From the IMG/VR virus record IMGVR_UViG_3300042320_001187, positions 1 to 21,884 of that record: a DNA stretch of 21,884 bases. The stretch is one strand, 5' to 3'. Below the pieces are notes generated by a model, which was not told the DNA's origin, ran no database searches, and saw only the letters and a program-made list of their open reading frames with translations. The stretch's first letter is position 1; every line of letters begins with the position of its first letter. Below are positions 13,782 to 21,404 of the stretch, one piece after another. The position numbers and the translations under genes are program-made. Source of the DNA: a virus.

Positions 13782-15146
13782 ATGGACTTAACCGCACAAA
13801 ATGCAAAAGTGATTGAATGGCCGGAAAAGCTCCAATGCTTATTCTGGCCAGAAGTCAATAGTATGCCTGTGCGTTATCGCGTGTTGTATGGGGGGCGTGG
13901 TGGAGCAAAGTCGTGGGGGATCGCGAGAGCACTTGTGATCCTTGCGGCGAAGCGCCCCCTTCGCATTCTTTGTGCTCGTGAATTGCAAAATTCAATTCGT
14001 GACTCGGTGCACAGAGTTTTAAGTGATCAGATTGATTTGTTAGGATTGCAAGGTTTTTATCAGATCGAGCAGGCAAGAATTTATTGCCCGTCCACAGGGT
14101 CTGAATTTTCTTTCGAAGGCATTCGAAATAATGTCACGAAGATTAAGTCATATGAAGGTGTGGACATTTGCTGGGTTGAGGAGGCGAACAAGGTCACGAA
14201 AACTTCGTGGGACGTTCTCATTCCTACGATTCGTAAGGAAGGTTCTGAAATCTGGGCTTCGTTTAACCCGGAGCTTGAAAGCGATGATACGTATGTAAGA
14301 TTTGTGCTGCAGCCGCCGAAAAACGCGATTGTGCAGAAAATTTCATGGCGTGATAATCCGTGGTTTCCGCAGGTTTTGAAGCAAGAAATGCTCGACTTAA
14401 AAGTGCGGGATCGTGACGCTTATCTGCATGTGTGGGAAGGTGAGTGCAGGAAAAGTCTGGAAGGAGCGGTTTATGCGGACGAACTTCGTGACTGCGCTGA
14501 AGAAGGTCGTATCACACACGTTCCTCACCATTCTAGCTCTGCTGTTAATTTGTATTTCGATCTTGGCCGGTCAGACAGCACGGCAATTATCTTCGAGCAA
14601 TACGTCGGAATGCAACGACGAGTCGTGGACTTTTACGAAAATCGACTCAAAGGGCTAGATCATTACATTCATGTGCTGCGCACACGCAGGGGCTCCACGG
14701 GCGAACTTTATGACTATGGTATTTGCTGGTTGCCGCATGATGCTCGGGCCAAGACATTAGGGTCGAAGAAGTCTATCGAGGAGCAGATGCGTGATGCGGG
14801 TTTTCAAGTTCGGATTGTGCCGAGGTTGAGCAAGTTCGACGGTATCATTGCGGCGAGAAGCATTTTCCCGACGTGCTGGTTTGACGCTGCAAAATGTGAG
14901 AAGGGCCTTTTACACGCTCTTCGCCATTATCATTACGAAGAAAACCCCGTGACTGAGACGTTCAGTGCAGAACCTGTGCATGATTGGTCGTCCCATGCCG
15001 CTGACGCTTTTCGATACATGGCTATTGCCTCGAACGAAGGTGGATCGGATGGGCGCAGTCGTAAAGTGGCGGGGGCGCTAAAACGTCAAAGCGGGTTAAT
15101 GGGTAAGTTGCAGAATTTGGGCGAAAGCCTGGGATGGATGGGATAA
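13782..15146 (+). CDS. terL: Terminase large subunit
   Basis: A 454-residue ATP-driven packaging motor and nuclease. The ATPase domain has Walker A GGRGGAKS (37-44), Walker B VDICWVEEA (127-135) with the catalytic acid pair, and FNPE (161-164) as the coupling motif. The nuclease domain has likely metal ligands at Asp260 (YFDLGRSDS), Asp320 (WLPHDARAK) and Asp408 (SHAADAFRY). The architecture fits the PBSX/Terminase_3 type. Length is normal for the family. The start lacks a clear ribosome binding site. The portal gene follows directly (stop TAA, then ATG), a standard phage order. Confidence 0.95.
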   Translation: MDLTAQNAKVIEWPEKLQCLFWPEVNSMPVRYRVLYGGRGGAKSWGIARALVILAAKRPLRILCARELQNSIRDSVHRVLSDQIDLLGLQGFYQIEQARIYCPSTGSEFSFEGIRNNVTKIKSYEGVDICWVEEANKVTKTSWDVLIPTIRKEGSEIWASFNPELESDDTYVRFVLQPPKNAIVQKISWRDNPWFPQVLKQEMLDLKVRDRDAYLHVWEGECRKSLEGAVYADELRDCAEEGRITHVPHHSSSAVNLYFDLGRSDSTAIIFEQYVGMQRRVVDFYENRLKGLDHYIHVLRTRRGSTGELYDYGICWLPHDARAKTLGSKKSIEEQMRDAGFQVRIVPRLSKFDGIIAARSIFPTCWFDAAKCEKGLLHALRHYHYEENPVTETFSAEPVHDWSSHAADAFRYMAIASNEGGSDGRSRKVAGALKRQSGLMGKLQNLGESLGWMG

Positions 15147-17348
15147 ATGGCACGGCAAGCAGTTGACAGCGATAAATTCCAGAAAGTCCTGAAACGTGCG
15201 CAAGAGCGTTTTAAGCGTTGCGAAGGCTGGGAGAGCTACGCCCGCAGATTGTTCATGGATGACATTCGTTTTGCGAATGCGGACGCTGACAACAAATATC
15301 AGTGGCCGACGCGCATGTGGAATGATCGGCAGCGCGATGAGCGTCCTGCCTTAACGATCAACAAGACCCGTCAGCATAATCTGAACATCATTAACGATGC
15401 GAAGATGAATAAGCCGGGGATTAAGTATCGCGCTGCTGGTAATGGTGCGACAGCGGAAAGTGCTCGAATTTGGGACGGAATCGCTCGGCACATTGAGTAT
15501 CAGTCAAATGCCCCGGCGCACTACGACTATGCCACCCGCTTTCAGGTCGAAGCTGGCATTGGCTATCTGCGTGTGAACACAGACTACGTGGACGAGAACT
15601 CGTTCGATCAGGAAATTTATATCACGAGTATCGCAGATCCGCTGACGGTTTATATTGACCCGGACGCGAAGGCTCCGGCGAAAGAAGATGCGCGCTTTGC
15701 GTTTATCTTCGAAGACATGCCGAAAGATTTGTTCGACCAGAAATATCCGCAGTATAAGCAGTTTGCTGGGCAGGAAGTTCTTGTTGGTGAAAAGGGCTGG
15801 TATGACGAGGACCATGTTCGCGTTGCGGAATATTTTGAAGCGGAAGATGTGAACGATGAACTGCTGATGTTCGATGGGCCGGATGGTCAGCCAATGACGC
15901 TCATGGCATCGGACTTGCGGAAGGTCGATCCGAAAAGTAAAATTTTTGATGATCCCCAGACTCGTAAGCGTGATGTCACTCGCCGCGTGATCCATTACCA
16001 CTTTATTGTTGGTAATCATGTGGTGCAGGAAGAAGAAAAGGTTTGGATCGGCAAGACCATTCCGATTATTCCAGTTGTTGGTGAGGAAACGATTATTGAG
16101 GGAAGGCTGGACCGTAAAGGTCATACCCGTGCGTTAAAAGACCCTCAGCGTATGTATAACTATTGGGCGTCTGCTGCAGTAGAATACGGAGCCTTGCAGT
16201 CCAAAACTCCATGGATCGTTGGAGTGGAAAGCGTAGAAGGCTTTGAGGAATACTGGGCTACGGCGAATCGCCAAAATCATGCGTATCTGCCTTATAAGTC
16301 TGTTGGAGATGATGGTAAGCCTTTGCCTCCACCTTCTCGTATTGAACCACCTGTGCCGTCGCCGGTCGCGCTAAAAGGCATGGAAGTGGCGAATGTTGAA
16401 ATGCAGATGGTTTCCGGGCAATACGAAAACCAACTGGGTATGCAGGGAAATGAACGCACGGGGAAGGCGATTGCTGAACGGCAGCGTCAGGGCGACCGCG
16501 CGACTTATCATTTTATCGACCATCTGGCGATTGCTATTCGGCAGGTGGGTAAGATCATTCTTGATCTCGTGCCGAAAGTTTACGACACCAACCGTGTTGT
16601 GATGATTTTGGCTGAGAACAATGAGAGTCTGGAAGTCAAGCTCGATCCGCAGTTGCAGCAAGCGCATATGCTGGAATTGAATGAGAATAACGAAGTGATC
16701 GGGCGGGTGCTGAACCCGGCGGTCGGAAGTTATGAAGTGCTGGCTGATGTGGGTCCGGGCTATGCGACGAGACGTGAAGAAGCGTTTAATGCGCTGACTC
16801 TGATCCTGACGCAGAACCCTGCGCTGACGAGTGTTATTGGCGACATCATGTTCCGCGCTGGCGACTTCCCGATGGCGGAAGAAGCTGCGGAGCGTTTGAA
16901 GCGCATGGTTCCCCCGCAGGCGCTCGGTCAAGGCCCGTCGCAAAACGAGCAGATGCTTGCCGCACAACTTCAGCAGATGCAGCAGGCGCTTCAAGCCTCT
17001 ATGGATGAGTTGGCGAAGGAAAAAGGCAAATCCCAGGCGAGACTCGAAAAAAGAGAGGTCGAGGTTTACGACGCAATCACGAAGCGTCTCGACATTCTGC
17101 TCAAGAATGTGGGAATGTCGCCGCAGCAGAACGCGCAAATTACCGATCAGGCTGTGCAGGAAAGCACCGAAGTCCCGATCAGCGATACTTACGAAGGTCA
17201 CGAAGATCAGATGGCGGGACGCCAGATGGCGTTGCCGCTTGAGGATCACGAAATGCCGGAAGGCGCGTTTCGTGGAGAAGATGGACATGCTTATGCGCCA
17301 CACCCGGAAATGCCCGGAATGATGGCCCGCGTTACGAAGGAGATGTGA
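15147..17348 (+). CDS. P22-like portal protein
   Basis: A 733-residue protein, close to the 725 residues of P22 gp1. It forms the dodecameric ring through which DNA enters and leaves the head. The N-terminal part (RPALTINKTRQHNLNIINDA, residues 66-85) and the following ADPLTVYIDPDA segment are typical of P22-type portals. The C-terminal 150 residues include a Gln-rich helix (residues about 605-660), compatible with the long helical barrel of P22 portals. It lies directly after the terminase and upstream of scaffold and coat, as expected. Confidence 0.9.
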   Translation: MARQAVDSDKFQKVLKRAQERFKRCEGWESYARRLFMDDIRFANADADNKYQWPTRMWNDRQRDERPALTINKTRQHNLNIINDAKMNKPGIKYRAAGNGATAESARIWDGIARHIEYQSNAPAHYDYATRFQVEAGIGYLRVNTDYVDENSFDQEIYITSIADPLTVYIDPDAKAPAKEDARFAFIFEDMPKDLFDQKYPQYKQFAGQEVLVGEKGWYDEDHVRVAEYFEAEDVNDELLMFDGPDGQPMTLMASDLRKVDPKSKIFDDPQTRKRDVTRRVIHYHFIVGNHVVQEEEKVWIGKTIPIIPVVGEETIIEGRLDRKGHTRALKDPQRMYNYWASAAVEYGALQSKTPWIVGVESVEGFEEYWATANRQNHAYLPYKSVGDDGKPLPPPSRIEPPVPSPVALKGMEVANVEMQMVSGQYENQLGMQGNERTGKAIAERQRQGDRATYHFIDHLAIAIRQVGKIILDLVPKVYDTNRVVMILAENNESLEVKLDPQLQQAHMLELNENNEVIGRVLNPAVGSYEVLADVGPGYATRREEAFNALTLILTQNPALTSVIGDIMFRAGDFPMAEEAAERLKRMVPPQALGQGPSQNEQMLAAQLQQMQQALQASMDELAKEKGKSQARLEKREVEVYDAITKRLDILLKNVGMSPQQNAQITDQAVQESTEVPISDTYEGHEDQMAGRQMALPLEDHEMPEGAFRGEDGHAYAPHPEMPGMMARVTKEM

Positions 17349-17349
17349 G

Positions 17350-18885
17350 ATGGCTGATCAGCGCATGACAAAAGAAGAGGCGAAAAGAGTTGCTGCGGAA
17401 AATCCTTACTTTGGGGACGTAGGTCCAATTAACAAACTCTACAATGTTTTGCAGGGTATTGGTGCCGAGTTGGGCGGCGCGGATATGGCTACACCTGTGG
17501 GCCAGCGTTATAATGAAGCTATGGCTGCGGGCGAGGCATATCGTCGTCGAGCAGAAGCCCTTCATGCCGCATTTCCCCAAGAATATGAAAATGCTCGAAT
17601 GGTCGCAGAAGATAGGTTGAACCCTGCATTGCTGGAGCAAGCAATCCCAGTATTACGGGCGATGCGTCCGGGCGTGACGACGTTTTCGCGGCTGCCGGGA
17701 GGCCCTGCTACACAAGAACAGCCGCTTTATGGCGGAGAACTAAGTTACCGCTTGCGAGGCAGAATGCCGTCCCCAGAAGGTCCGACGATAAATGCCGGAT
17801 TTGATGTGCCTCGAGGCATGAGTCGTTTTCAGGCAAATCAGTATTATATGACTCATGGTATTCCGGGAGATGAAATTTATCGTCGGTCTAATTATGGAGG
17901 AGAATTAGGGTTTAGTCCAAGAGGCAGAATGCCTTCACCTCCAGGTGAGCCGATTGAAATGGGAGCGCCTTACTGGCCGAATGCTGTTCCTCGGGGTATG
18001 AATCGATTTCGGGCGAATACGTTTGGTATGACGTATGGCCGCCCCGGCAATGAAATGTATAAATATTCAAATATGGACTTTGTGCCAACAGTTACGGAAG
18101 GGCAGGAAACTGCTCGTGCGGGACAAGCAGTTGCGCCGTATCGGCAGGGTGGACTGGTTTATGAGCCTGTCGGCGGGCCGCAAGGCGCTGCTCCTCGTCA
18201 GATCGGTGGCCCGCAGAGTGGTGGCCTTCCGACGATGGCACAGGGTCGTGGAATGCGTCCGACGCTGATAGAAGGGGAGTTCTCAGAAGTTCCGCCGCAA
18301 GGCCAGATACCTTATGGAATGGGTTATCGTCCGAACTTCACGATGGAAGGCGGCACATACACCCCGTCGATGGGTGCGGCTGAACAGTTTGGTGCTGGAA
18401 CACAGCGTGGTTATCGGGGATTTGGTCCACTTGGGGCAGGACTGGGTGTGGCAGCAGGTCCGGGCGTGATGTATATGGCAGATCGCACGGAGCGTCCAGT
18501 TTCGTCTTTGTCGAATAATCCCATGCAGCCATCTAATGTTGCTCCTGCATCTCCGCTTTATGGCACTTCGCCAGAAGGTTATCCGACTTTCGGTATTATG
18601 CCGGGGGCAGAAGGAATGAATTTTATTAACCGTGCTCGACAAGGCGCTGGGCCGGAAATGCCAAAAGGTGCAGGAAGACGTGCGGCTGGCGGTGGGGCGG
18701 TTGGCGGCGGGCAGAAAGCTGTGCCGCTTCCGCCAACTCGTCCAGAAGGACTGGGTGATACAGGTTGGGAAGGCAACTTGAACTACCTTGTGACGAGTTT
18801 AATTGATCGTATCTCAGGGCAAGGTGAGGCCGAACGTGGCCGCAACACTCAAGAATATTACGCCACAAACCCGTGGCCGTATTAA
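17350..18885 (+). CDS. Gly/Pro-rich protein with internal repeats between portal and scaffold
   Basis: A 511-residue protein with AAGGAG 7 bases before the ATG. Residues 1-105 look helical (PVGQRYNEAMAAGEAYRRRA). Residues 127-181 and 182-241 are two tandem copies of a 55-60 residue unit (YGGEL, RGRMPSP, VPRGM, RFxAN, GxPGxExY). The rest is Gly/Pro/Met-rich and probably disordered. PLPPTRPEGLG at about 459-469 resembles proline-rich motifs recurrent in phage virion proteins. No family is recognised. Position suggests a head-associated or internal (ejected) virion protein, which is inference. P22 itself has no such gene between portal and scaffold. Confidence 0.65.
   Translation: MADQRMTKEEAKRVAAENPYFGDVGPINKLYNVLQGIGAELGGADMATPVGQRYNEAMAAGEAYRRRAEALHAAFPQEYENARMVAEDRLNPALLEQAIPVLRAMRPGVTTFSRLPGGPATQEQPLYGGELSYRLRGRMPSPEGPTINAGFDVPRGMSRFQANQYYMTHGIPGDEIYRRSNYGGELGFSPRGRMPSPPGEPIEMGAPYWPNAVPRGMNRFRANTFGMTYGRPGNEMYKYSNMDFVPTVTEGQETARAGQAVAPYRQGGLVYEPVGGPQGAAPRQIGGPQSGGLPTMAQGRGMRPTLIEGEFSEVPPQGQIPYGMGYRPNFTMEGGTYTPSMGAAEQFGAGTQRGYRGFGPLGAGLGVAAGPGVMYMADRTERPVSSLSNNPMQPSNVAPASPLYGTSPEGYPTFGIMPGAEGMNFINRARQGAGPEMPKGAGRRAAGGGAVGGGQKAVPLPPTRPEGLGDTGWEGNLNYLVTSLIDRISGQGEAERGRNTQEYYATNPWPY
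17728..18072 (+). repeat. Tandem protein-level repeat in the 17350 gene
   Basis: Two copies of a unit of about 165-180 bases (17728-17892 and 17893-18072) encode similar peptides. Codon-level identity is only partial, suggesting an old duplication or selection on the peptide. Shared peptides include RGRMPSP and VPRGM. Confidence 0.6.
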
Positions 18886-18926: not shown

Positions 18927-19259
18927 ATGTCAAGAGAGCCGTTGATTAGGTTGCCGGGAAAAGGCGCACATGCCCATAAACTGGTGGCGAAAACTGCGAT
19001 GGAAATGGCGCAGGAAGTCTATGAAAAGAATGCTGGACGCTCAAACGATTTTTATGAAAAGTATCCAGATCGTGAAGCGTATGTTTCAAGTTGCTGGGCG
19101 CTTTATCTTGATGCTGCTAGGACCACTTTGACGCAGTTATTGACTACGAACATGGATGACAACTTGAAGCAAGAGATATATGATGCCTTGGTGAAAGACG
19201 CTACGTTGCGTCGAGGACGTGAGGGCGTCCTTCAAATGAAACACGGTGCAGGAGCCTAA
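18927..19259 (+). CDS. Hypothetical protein upstream of scaffold (110 aa)
   Basis: A 110-residue mostly helical protein. AAGGAG (18915-18920) fixes the ATG at 18927, just after the hairpin. Residues 10-45 (KLVAKTAMEMAQEVYEKNAG) and 55-95 (SCWALYLDAARTTLTQLL) form amphipathic helices, and the C-terminus is basic. Small helical proteins in this position are common in environmental podoviruses, from memory, without a defined role. It may assist head assembly. The scaffold ATG follows the TAA after one base. Confidence 0.6.
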   Translation: MSREPLIRLPGKGAHAHKLVAKTAMEMAQEVYEKNAGRSNDFYEKYPDREAYVSSCWALYLDAARTTLTQLLTTNMDDNLKQEIYDALVKDATLRRGREGVLQMKHGAGA

Positions 19260-19260
19260 C

Positions 19261-20034
19261 ATGAAAACTTTGATGCTGAATTTTTGGGAAGGCGCGATGC
19301 GCCAAAGTGACGGAGAGCAGGGCGCGGCACCGCCAGAGGCACCAGCCGCTGTCGAGGCTCCCGTTGTGGCCGATGTTGGTCAAGAAACGGTAGCAGATAG
19401 CGTTCCCCACGATGCTGCTCCCGATGAAAGCTCTGCGAAACCCCCGCAGGGTCTGCTTGACCGCATCGGCCAGCTTACTCGCCAAAAGCGTGAACTTGAA
19501 GAACGACTGCAGCAGGCTCAATACTATCAGCAGCCGCAGGCTTATGAACAGCCGCAGGAAGCTGGTTACGATCCCCGCACCGTGCAGTTGGAAATTCATC
19601 GGCAGGCCCAGGAACTTGCCAAACATCAGGCTTGGAAAGACACGACAGATAAAATTTGGAATGACGGCCTTTCCAAGTATGGCGACTGGGCTCCGCAGCT
19701 TAATAATATGGCGCAGCTTTTAGGCGGCATTCCTACCACTTTAACAGAAGCCGCCATTGAAACCGGAAATCCGCAGGAAGTGCTTTATCATCTGGCAAAG
19801 AACCCGGATGAGGCGGCGCGGATTGCGATGCTTCCGCCGACAAGGCAGGCTGTGGCGGTGGCAAAGGTTGCGAGTGGGTTGAACTCACCGAAGCGTGTAA
19901 GTTCGGCTCCTCCTCCCATTACTCCAAAGGTGCAAGGTATCGGCAGCGCCCCGGCGACACTTGACGATCCTAACATATCTATGGAAGAATGGGCGAGATT
20001 ACGCAACGAGCAATCTGCTCGTCGTAGAAGGTAG
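19261..20034 (+). CDS. Scaffold protein
   Basis: A 257-residue procapsid scaffold candidate. Residues 15-60 are Pro/Ala/Glu-rich and disordered. Residues 62-90 form a charged coiled-coil-like helix (LLDRIGQLTRQKRELEERLQ) followed by a Gln/Tyr-rich linker. A helical region follows (110-215), and the end, SMEEWARLRNEQSARRRR (240-257), is a basic helix of the type by which P22-like scaffolds bind coat. Position directly before the coat gene supports the call. AGGAG lies about 7 bases before the ATG. The sequence is not close enough to name a subfamily. Confidence 0.8.
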   Translation: MKTLMLNFWEGAMRQSDGEQGAAPPEAPAAVEAPVVADVGQETVADSVPHDAAPDESSAKPPQGLLDRIGQLTRQKRELEERLQQAQYYQQPQAYEQPQEAGYDPRTVQLEIHRQAQELAKHQAWKDTTDKIWNDGLSKYGDWAPQLNNMAQLLGGIPTTLTEAAIETGNPQEVLYHLAKNPDEAARIAMLPPTRQAVAVAKVASGLNSPKRVSSAPPPITPKVQGIGSAPATLDDPNISMEEWARLRNEQSARRRR

Positions 20035-20036
20035 GC

Positions 20037-20055
20037 GGAACCACCTTACGGTTCC
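20037..20055 (+). terminator. Hairpin directly after the scaffold gene
   Basis: GGAACC (20037-20042) pairs with GGTTCC (20050-20055) around ACCTTAC, two bases after the scaffold stop, followed by pyrimidines (CCCTCTCT) but no T-run. Probable 3'-end structure of the scaffold message. Confidence 0.4.
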
Positions 20056-20063
20056 CCCTCTCT

Positions 20064-20169
20064 GACTGTGGGGTAAACAGTCTGGGCTGGCCCGATAAAG
20101 TGACGGACGCGGGCACCGTCGAAACGCAGGGGACTCCCCCGTTGCTTTTTGGCACTCATGGCGCGTCCG
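20064..20169 (+). ncRNA. Structured 5' leader RNA of the coat gene
   Basis: Several helices can form in this leader: GACTGT/ACAGTC (20064-20069 with 20077-20082) around GGGGTAA; GGGC/GCCC (20084-20093); GACGG/CCGTC (20102-20106 with 20116-20120); CGGACGCG/CGCGTCCG (20104-20111 with 20162-20169). The last two share bases, so they are alternatives, or the loop bases 20107-20111 could pair with 20162-20166 as a pseudoknot. Between them lies a terminator-like hairpin. The arrangement looks like a regulatory or assembly-related RNA. Pairings are seen; function is unknown. Confidence 0.5.
20123..20150 (+). terminator. Terminator-like hairpin within the coat leader
   Basis: AACG (20123-20126) and GGGG (20129-20132) pair with CCCC (20136-20139) and CGTT (20140-20143), with a CA bulge and loop ACT. 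TTTTT follows at 20146-20150. It ends 42 bases before the coat ATG, so it could attenuate or pause transcription. Confidence 0.45.
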
Positions 20170-20192
20170 CGCTTTAACAAAAGGTCAGTAAA

Positions 20193-21404
20193 ATGTCTAA
20201 CTCACTCTTAACAATTAACATGATTACCCGTGAGGCCGTTCGCCTCTGGGTCAACACCAACTCGTTCCTGCAGCATATCGACACGCAGTATGACGATCAG
20301 TTCGCCATTACCGGCGCGAAGATCGGCCAGAGCCTGCGTATCCGCCTGCCGAACGATTATACCGTTCGCACGGGTCCGGTTGCGCAGATTCAGGATACGG
20401 CGGAACAGTCCACCACCCTGACGCTGGCGACCCAGAAGGGCGTTGACGTGTCGTTCAATTCTGCTGAACGCACGATGAGCTTGGACGATTACTCCAAGCG
20501 CATTCTTGCTCCGGCGGTCAACAATCTGGTGGGCGCGGTTGCGGCGGACGTTATGTCTGGCGTTGAAGGCGGCGTTTCTAACCTCGTTGGTAACTTTGAC
20601 GCTGCGGGCAATCTGCTTCGTCCGACGCTCGACACTTGGCTGCAGGCTAAGGCGCTGCTGTCCTTGCGTTCGGCCCCCACCGATAACCGTAAGTTCATTC
20701 TGGACCCGGTTTCGATGGCCCGCACGGTGCAGAGCCTGTCCGGCTTGCTGAACCCCGCGACGGAAATCTCTGAGCAGTATCGCAAGGGTGAAGTTTATAA
20801 CGCGATTGGCTTCGACTGGTTCGAGGATCAGACTGTCATCAAGCACACGACTGGCACGTATGTTGTTGGCGTCTCCCCGACCGTCAACGGCGCGAACCAG
20901 ACCGGCACCAGCATTAACGTGACGATTGGCGCGTCCTCCTTCACGGTTGGCGACATCATCACTTTTGCTGGCGTGAACGCGGTCAACCGCATCACCAAGG
21001 TTACGACTGGTGAACTGCAGCAGTTCGTTGTTACGAGCTACGCTGGCGGTGTCCTCGGCATTTATCCCGCGATTGTGCCGCCGTCCGGTGGTTCGACGGT
21101 TCAGTATCAGACGGTTACGGCTTCGCCCGCCAACGGCGCTGCCATTAACAGCCTGACGCTGACGGGCCAGGTTTATCGTAAGAACATCGCGTTCATCCCC
21201 GATGCGGTTACGATGGCGACTGCCGATCTGGAAATGCCGAAGAACATGCAGGAAGTTGCGCGTGAGCGTATGGACGGCGTGTCTCTCCGTATGGTGACGG
21301 GCTTCGACATTAAGTCGGATCAGTTCATCACCCGTCTGGACGTTCTTTACGGTTATCTCTGGGTTCGCCCGGAATGGGCCGTGGTCGTCGCGGACATTAT
21401 CTAA
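20193..21404 (+). CDS. Major coat protein, P22 gp5-like
   Basis: A 403-residue protein (P22 gp5 is 430), the shell subunit. The N-terminal segment (NMITREAVRLWVNTNSF), the RLPNDYTVRTG motif, a central beta-rich insertion (residues about 225-310, Gly/Thr/Val-rich) and the C-terminus with a MVTGFDIKSDQFITRLDVLY segment followed by WVRPEWAVVV fit the P22-type coat family with an HK97 fold and an inserted domain. Its codon choice seems more regular and GC-ending than in neighbours, consistent with high expression. It is preceded by a long structured leader and a modest AAGG site about 8 bases from the ATG, and followed by a hairpin. Confidence 0.9.
   Translation: MSNSLLTINMITREAVRLWVNTNSFLQHIDTQYDDQFAITGAKIGQSLRIRLPNDYTVRTGPVAQIQDTAEQSTTLTLATQKGVDVSFNSAERTMSLDDYSKRILAPAVNNLVGAVAADVMSGVEGGVSNLVGNFDAAGNLLRPTLDTWLQAKALLSLRSAPTDNRKFILDPVSMARTVQSLSGLLNPATEISEQYRKGEVYNAIGFDWFEDQTVIKHTTGTYVVGVSPTVNGANQTGTSINVTIGASSFTVGDIITFAGVNAVNRITKVTTGELQQFVVTSYAGGVLGIYPAIVPPSGGSTVQYQTVTASPANGAAINSLTLTGQVYRKNIAFIPDAVTMATADLEMPKNMQEVARERMDGVSLRMVTGFDIKSDQFITRLDVLYGYLWVRPEWAVVVADII

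Follow-up and report, generated by a model that had tools for sequence, protein, structure and literature searches.

How tailed phages balance coat against scaffolding protein is an old question, and to our knowledge post-transcriptional control of this balance is known mainly from P22, whose scaffolding protein reportedly autoregulates its own synthesis (King, Casjens and colleagues). Among described RNAs a close counterpart is the gene 32 operator of phages T4 and RB69, a pseudoknot upstream of the Shine-Dalgarno (SD) sequence that is bound by the gene's own product, gp32, in autogenous repression, and that has diverged in sequence between operators while its fold was retained (PMC535899).

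The leader described here fills the 158 nt between the scaffold and coat genes of the window, that is, of the whole 21,884-nt stretch of viral DNA that was analysed. Judged from its sequence, it resembles the gene 32 operator as a phage mRNA leader with a predicted pseudoknot 5' of the SD, but differs in having two tandem pseudoknots, a long-range burial of the SD and a capsid gene downstream. Repeats of the gene 32 type (UUAAA/UAAA) near the SD are absent from 20154-20192, which is largely paired. With P22 it shares the scaffold-coat operon and the type of capsid, and control in P22 is likewise post-transcriptional; however, the P22 target is the synthesis of scaffold, whereas here it is the coat gene that has the leader. 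The leader is distinct from the mechanism of P22, since the gaps in twelve sampled P22-like phage records with coats less than 41% identical are no longer than 60 nt. As in SD-sequestering riboswitches and ribosomal-protein operators, alternative pairings would expose or hide the SD, with the switching putative in our case, but the leader belongs to no Rfam class and occurs with a single phage structural gene. In the open-access literature that was searched, we found no capsid gene with a tandem-pseudoknot leader.

Gene order and predicted fold

Upstream of the leader the genes run from the terminase through a P22-like portal gene and two genes whose products have no Pfam or PHROGs match to the scaffold gene, with its stop codon at 20032-20034; the coat ATG is at 20193 (Table 1). 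We infer that this coat gene is under the control of the leader.

Table 1. Positions of the leader elements and the neighbouring genes in the window
Feature	Position	Strand	Remarks
Terminase gene	13782-15146		
P22-like portal gene	15147-17348		between terminase and two unmatched genes
Two genes, portal-scaffold interval	17350-18885 and 18927-19259		
Scaffold gene	19261-20034	+	phrog_8865 head scaffolding, E=6.7e-21; directly upstream of leader
Whole structured leader, scaffold-coat gap	20035-20192	+	158 nt; length conserved in close leaders
H1, hairpin right after scaffold stop	20037-20055	+	arms 20037-20042/20050-20055; loop CCUUA-like, conserved
PKa, H-type pseudoknot	20056-20082	+	CCCU/GGGG 20056-20059/20070-20073; GACUGU/ACAGUC 20064-20069/20077-20082; A-rich third loop
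Anti-SD strand CUGGCC	20087-20092	+	MFE partner of SD region; three bases shared with PKb 5' arm
PKb, H-type pseudoknot	20090-20120	+	GCCCG/CGGGC 20090-20094/20110-20114; GACGG/CCGUC 20102-20106/20116-20120
LR (long-range helix), 5' strand	20096-20111	+	incompatible with PKb
H3, long hairpin	20118-20153	+	near-invariant ACUC loop 20133-20136; U-run 20146-20150 in lower 3' arm
LR, 3' strand	20162-20176	+	
Coat SD AAAAGG and flank	20179-20188	+	GGUCAG 20183-20188 pairs with 20087-20092
P22-like coat gene	20193-21404	+	PF11651, E=2.9e-39; phrog_283 major head protein

A preliminary description had called the gap full of potential helices, and this is borne out: the leader reaches an MFE of -66 kcal/mol as against -53.5 ± 3.6 kcal/mol for dinucleotide shuffles (z -3.45), none of 200 being equally stable, and the named pairings exist at their coordinates. 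These are GACGG/CCGTC, which joins 20102-20106 to 20116-20120, and the long-range match CGGACGCG/CGCGTCCG (20104-20111 with 20162-20169), a perfect helix of 8 bp that is lengthened by seven further pairs (20096-20102 with 20170-20176). The pseudoknot that had been proposed through 20107-20111 did not hold, as the homologues instead back a pairing of 20090-20094 with 20110-20114. Two elements had been missed altogether, a second pseudoknot at 20056-20082 and the burial of the SD, where GGUCAG pairs with CUGGCC in the MFE fold of the window. The resulting arrangement of hairpin H1, two tandem H-type pseudoknots (PKa and PKb), hairpin H3 and a long-range element hiding the SD is supported as a conserved fold by the sequence comparisons below. 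Within the LR 3' region, 20161-20164 and 20169-20172 can alternatively pair as a local hairpin, H4 (GCGC-GUCC-GCGC).

The bulged hairpin at 20126-20145 and the TTTTT that follows it (20146-20150) had been considered part of a possible attenuator or anti-terminator. Both exist, but the T's are not free: they pair with 20121-20124, and the U-run forms the lower 3' arm of the H3 stem. An attenuator, in which H3 and the U-run would stop transcription before the coat gene unless an alternative fold intervenes, could explain why 7 of the 11 close leaders taken as representatives show a hairpin with a U-tract, as compared to 0-2 in shuffles. Nevertheless, the upper H3 stem has no competing fold, PKb and LR both leaving it intact; the run is just 4-6 U's long and paired inside the stem, so that there is no free U-tract; a terminator scan shows none at the leader; and the signal is weak in distant leaders, where 11 of 69 carry such a hairpin, for the most part elsewhere, as against 3-8 in shuffles. 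We therefore consider attenuation very improbable. As a separate observation, the H3 loop reads ACUC in 26 of the 27 close leaders (AUUC in L021) and is a possible site of protein or RNA contact.

Covariation among close relatives

Scanning IMG/VR with the coat protein gave 80 loci, and we define as the close family those with a coat about 81% identical or more, excluding L052, in which the upstream region differs. It comprises 27 distinct leaders and appears to be saturated, since further scans gave no additional close members. The leaders are 145-161 nt long and the architecture is conserved. Their lengths bear on the idea that the pseudoknots stimulate readthrough or frameshifting at the scaffold stop, or that the leader encodes a small peptide. 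A pseudoknot does begin about 20 nt past the stop codon, but the lengths show no preference for any frame (10/9/8 of 27) and the representatives have no small ORF in common, which makes recoding or a leader peptide exceedingly improbable.

Covariation among homologous leaders had been put forward at the outset as a way to check the pairings, with uncompensated changes speaking against them. Compensatory changes were found in H1, S2a, S1b, S2b, H3 and LR across the 27 distinct leaders. In the curated alignment, which was handmade with the proposed helices in mind so that pairing counts are biased towards them, H1 is paired in 150 of 151 cells, with compensatory change in five of its six pairs; PKa stem S2a in 159 of 160, with several compensatory pairs; PKb stem S1b in 133 of 135 (variants GCCCG/CGGGC, GCCUG/CAGGC and GCUCG/CGAGC); PKb stem S2b in all 135 (GACGG/CCGUC, GGCGG/CCGCU and GACGG/CCGUU); and the lower H3 stem in 161 of 162 over six pairs, the upper stem also covarying. 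The CCC/GGG core of PKa stem S1a is invariant in close leaders.

PKb and LR both use 20096-20114 and are therefore mutually exclusive. For LR, both-sided changes occur at alignment columns 79-150, 83-145 and 84-144, and two of these columns covary twice: column 83 (G/A) changes in step with both 65 in PKb and 145 in LR, and in L055 column 84 does likewise with 64 (PKb) and 144 (LR). This double covariation is as would be expected if the PKb and LR folds both matter. The competition between pairings that the preliminary description had suspected is thus upheld, with the alternative partners covarying. In an R-scape-like test that preserves the phylogeny, applied to what are effectively two large clades and of limited power, the top four of 9316 column pairs are all proposed pairs; a single pair, the best of H1, reaches E<0.05 (E=0.0125 over 9316 pairs), and none of the S1b, S2b or LR pairs does so individually.

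The H1 loop (20043-20049) retains CCUUA/CCUNA in close relatives while the arms vary freely. Because the loop is complementary to the SD and similar to the 16S rRNA 3' end, a contact between loop and SD can be imagined, and CCUU kissing the SD is a possible candidate that we spotted by eye.

Reach of the family

Where coats are 53-74% identical the leaders are also long, most of them 120-270 nt with a few short gaps; sequence similarity is nearly gone while the pseudoknot shapes persist. A descriptor of PKb (S1 5-6 bp, L1 3-9, L2 1-3, L3 0-1, cutoff <= -18 kcal/mol) is matched by 26 of 64 non-redundant distant leaders as compared to 4.7 for shuffles (maximum 9 of 60), the other control counts being 12 for reverse complements and 5 for coat coding sequence. 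The PKa descriptor (<= -20) is matched by 20 of the 64, against 2.9 in shuffles (maximum 6 of 40). The matches usually lie 5' of PKb, and in many the third loop is A-rich. Both enrichments are non-blind, as the descriptors were drawn up after some distant leaders had been seen. Scanning viral contigs with the PKb pattern gave mostly chance matches in GC-rich genomes, from which the true leaders were set apart by a covariance model.

This model covers 20056-20153 and was built from 14 close leaders. Run on 100 pattern-derived loci, it gives 17 strong matches, each a coat leader on a coat-family contig. In 63 distant loci (277 kb) searched at E<=5, seven of eight matches are on the + strand and precisely in the coat leader, although the leader makes up 1.8% of the search space (P about 6e-12). 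The family extends well beyond the close set, since the model recovers these distant coat leaders, and by such comparisons it is a conserved RNA family whose shape is conserved more than its sequence. A genome scan gave a single distant match, L281, in a Xanthobacteraceae MAG. Four loci of distant phages (L075, L267, L349 and L362) carry a strong terminator-like hairpin and U-tract within the first 60 nt after the scaffold stop; such hairpins would make the coat leader a separate transcript start.

Could the leader be a riboswitch, with a small molecule or ion coupling coat synthesis to the state of the host? Compact pseudoknots, a near-invariant ACUC loop and alternative folds are what one would look for. 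On the other hand, Rfam gave no match at gathering thresholds in the window or in 20 family loci, and chance-level matches at most in a permissive search; the strong covariance-model matches lie solely before one structural gene; and distant leaders show little sequence conservation, unlike most aptamers. We regard a riboswitch as very improbable.

Two phages bear on where the family stops. In Pseudomonas phage PAE2 (L200), with a coat 56% identical, the pre-coat gap is just 6 nt and the leader was either lost or never gained. Acetobacter phage phiAX1 (LC644973, L199 2361-2515), with a coat 40.5% identical, has a pre-coat gap of 140 nt. Right after the upstream gene this contains a candidate PKa-like pseudoknot, CUGC-uc-GCGGA-GCAG-ucuc-UCCGC, and a long-range helix, GCCACGGG/CCCGUGGC, is predicted over the GUG start of its coat gene; no clear PKb was found in this leader.

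Shine-Dalgarno burial and control of coat translation

Burial of the SD was evaluated as the cost of opening it, compared to leaders in which the upstream part was shuffled and the last 28 nt were kept. In the window this cost is 5.6 kcal/mol as against 3.5 kcal/mol in shuffles, which alone is not significant (p=0.21). Among distant leaders the mean z is 1.84 and 28 of 68 lie beyond nearly all shuffles where about 5.4 are expected (P about 8e-14); among close leaders the mean z is 0.94 and 7 of 21 do so (P about 9e-4), these P values being calculated from a per-leader null of 2/25 and optimistic, as the leaders are not fully independent. At the level of the group, therefore, burial of the coat SD by predicted long-range pairing beyond chance is supported. 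Its relation to PKb varies. In the window group PKb takes three anti-SD bases, while the anti-SD of group II, and of several distant leaders, sits next to PKb without overlapping it, so that PKb and SD burial could coexist there. Taken over the leaders in general, overlap between PKb and the anti-SD only mildly exceeds a sliding control (2.96 against 2.00).

The main rival is a static element for mRNA stability or processing, in which a processed coat mRNA would have its 5' end protected or marked by H1, the tandem pseudoknots and H3, and the SD pairing would be loosened by ribosomes or helicases, with no regulated switching. Coat is required in far larger amounts than the products of most neighbouring genes, H1 sits directly 3' of the scaffold stop, the folds are very stable, and PKa, conserved at the 5' side, itself has no contact with the SD, all of which would suit such an element. 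A pure stabiliser, however, has no need of an SD burial selected beyond shuffles, and the covariation of alternative partners also argues against it; we hold the static reading to be unlikely, though worth keeping in mind.

We favour translational control of some kind by the leader and consider it fairly probable. That the leader RNA, more specifically, acts in cis to control translation of the coat gene, probably with alternating folds, we judge to be evenly balanced, and true two-state switching is a tentative proposal, slightly below that. In this proposal PKa and PKb would form first on the nascent RNA, giving an open state in which PKb occupies bases needed by LR and, in the window subgroup, the three SD-hiding bases, so that the ribosome could land. 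The closed state would become possible only after the 3' third of the leader has been synthesised: LR would then displace PKb and the SD would be clamped onto 20087-20092. When growing prefixes of the leader are folded, S2b appears before LR, and LR only once its 3' strand exists; an order-of-folding switch between PKb and LR is thus plausible in these models. With an assumed pseudoknot penalty of 7-9.6, LR in the window is about 10-13 kcal/mol more stable than PKb, and in group IIb (L028, L042 and L079) the two energies nearly match.

The most plausible trigger would be an assembly protein, coat or scaffold, binding to PKa, PKb or the ACUC loop and thereby exerting feedback on coat synthesis. 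Putative feedback of this kind, raised already in the preliminary description, is compatible with our results, although as it stands a capsid protein is a doubtful effector. Somewhat more doubtful is the wider idea that the tandem-pseudoknot leaders are a widespread family of assembly sensors, where free coat or scaffold binds the pseudoknots and sets the translation of coat. If true, the output of capsid protein would track the state of capsid assembly.

Thus, in many uncultured phages related to P22 the landing site of the ribosome on the coat gene is predicted to be tucked into a two-knot leader of 130-270 nt. Its position between scaffold and coat in this large group, where it appears to hide the coat start, suggests an undescribed mode of timing or rationing the production of shell protein and permits a specific and cheap test of coat control, for which the cultured phiAX1, which may carry a version of the leader, would be a practical laboratory model. 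More generally, geometry can reveal structured RNAs in viral dark matter once sequence similarity has been lost.
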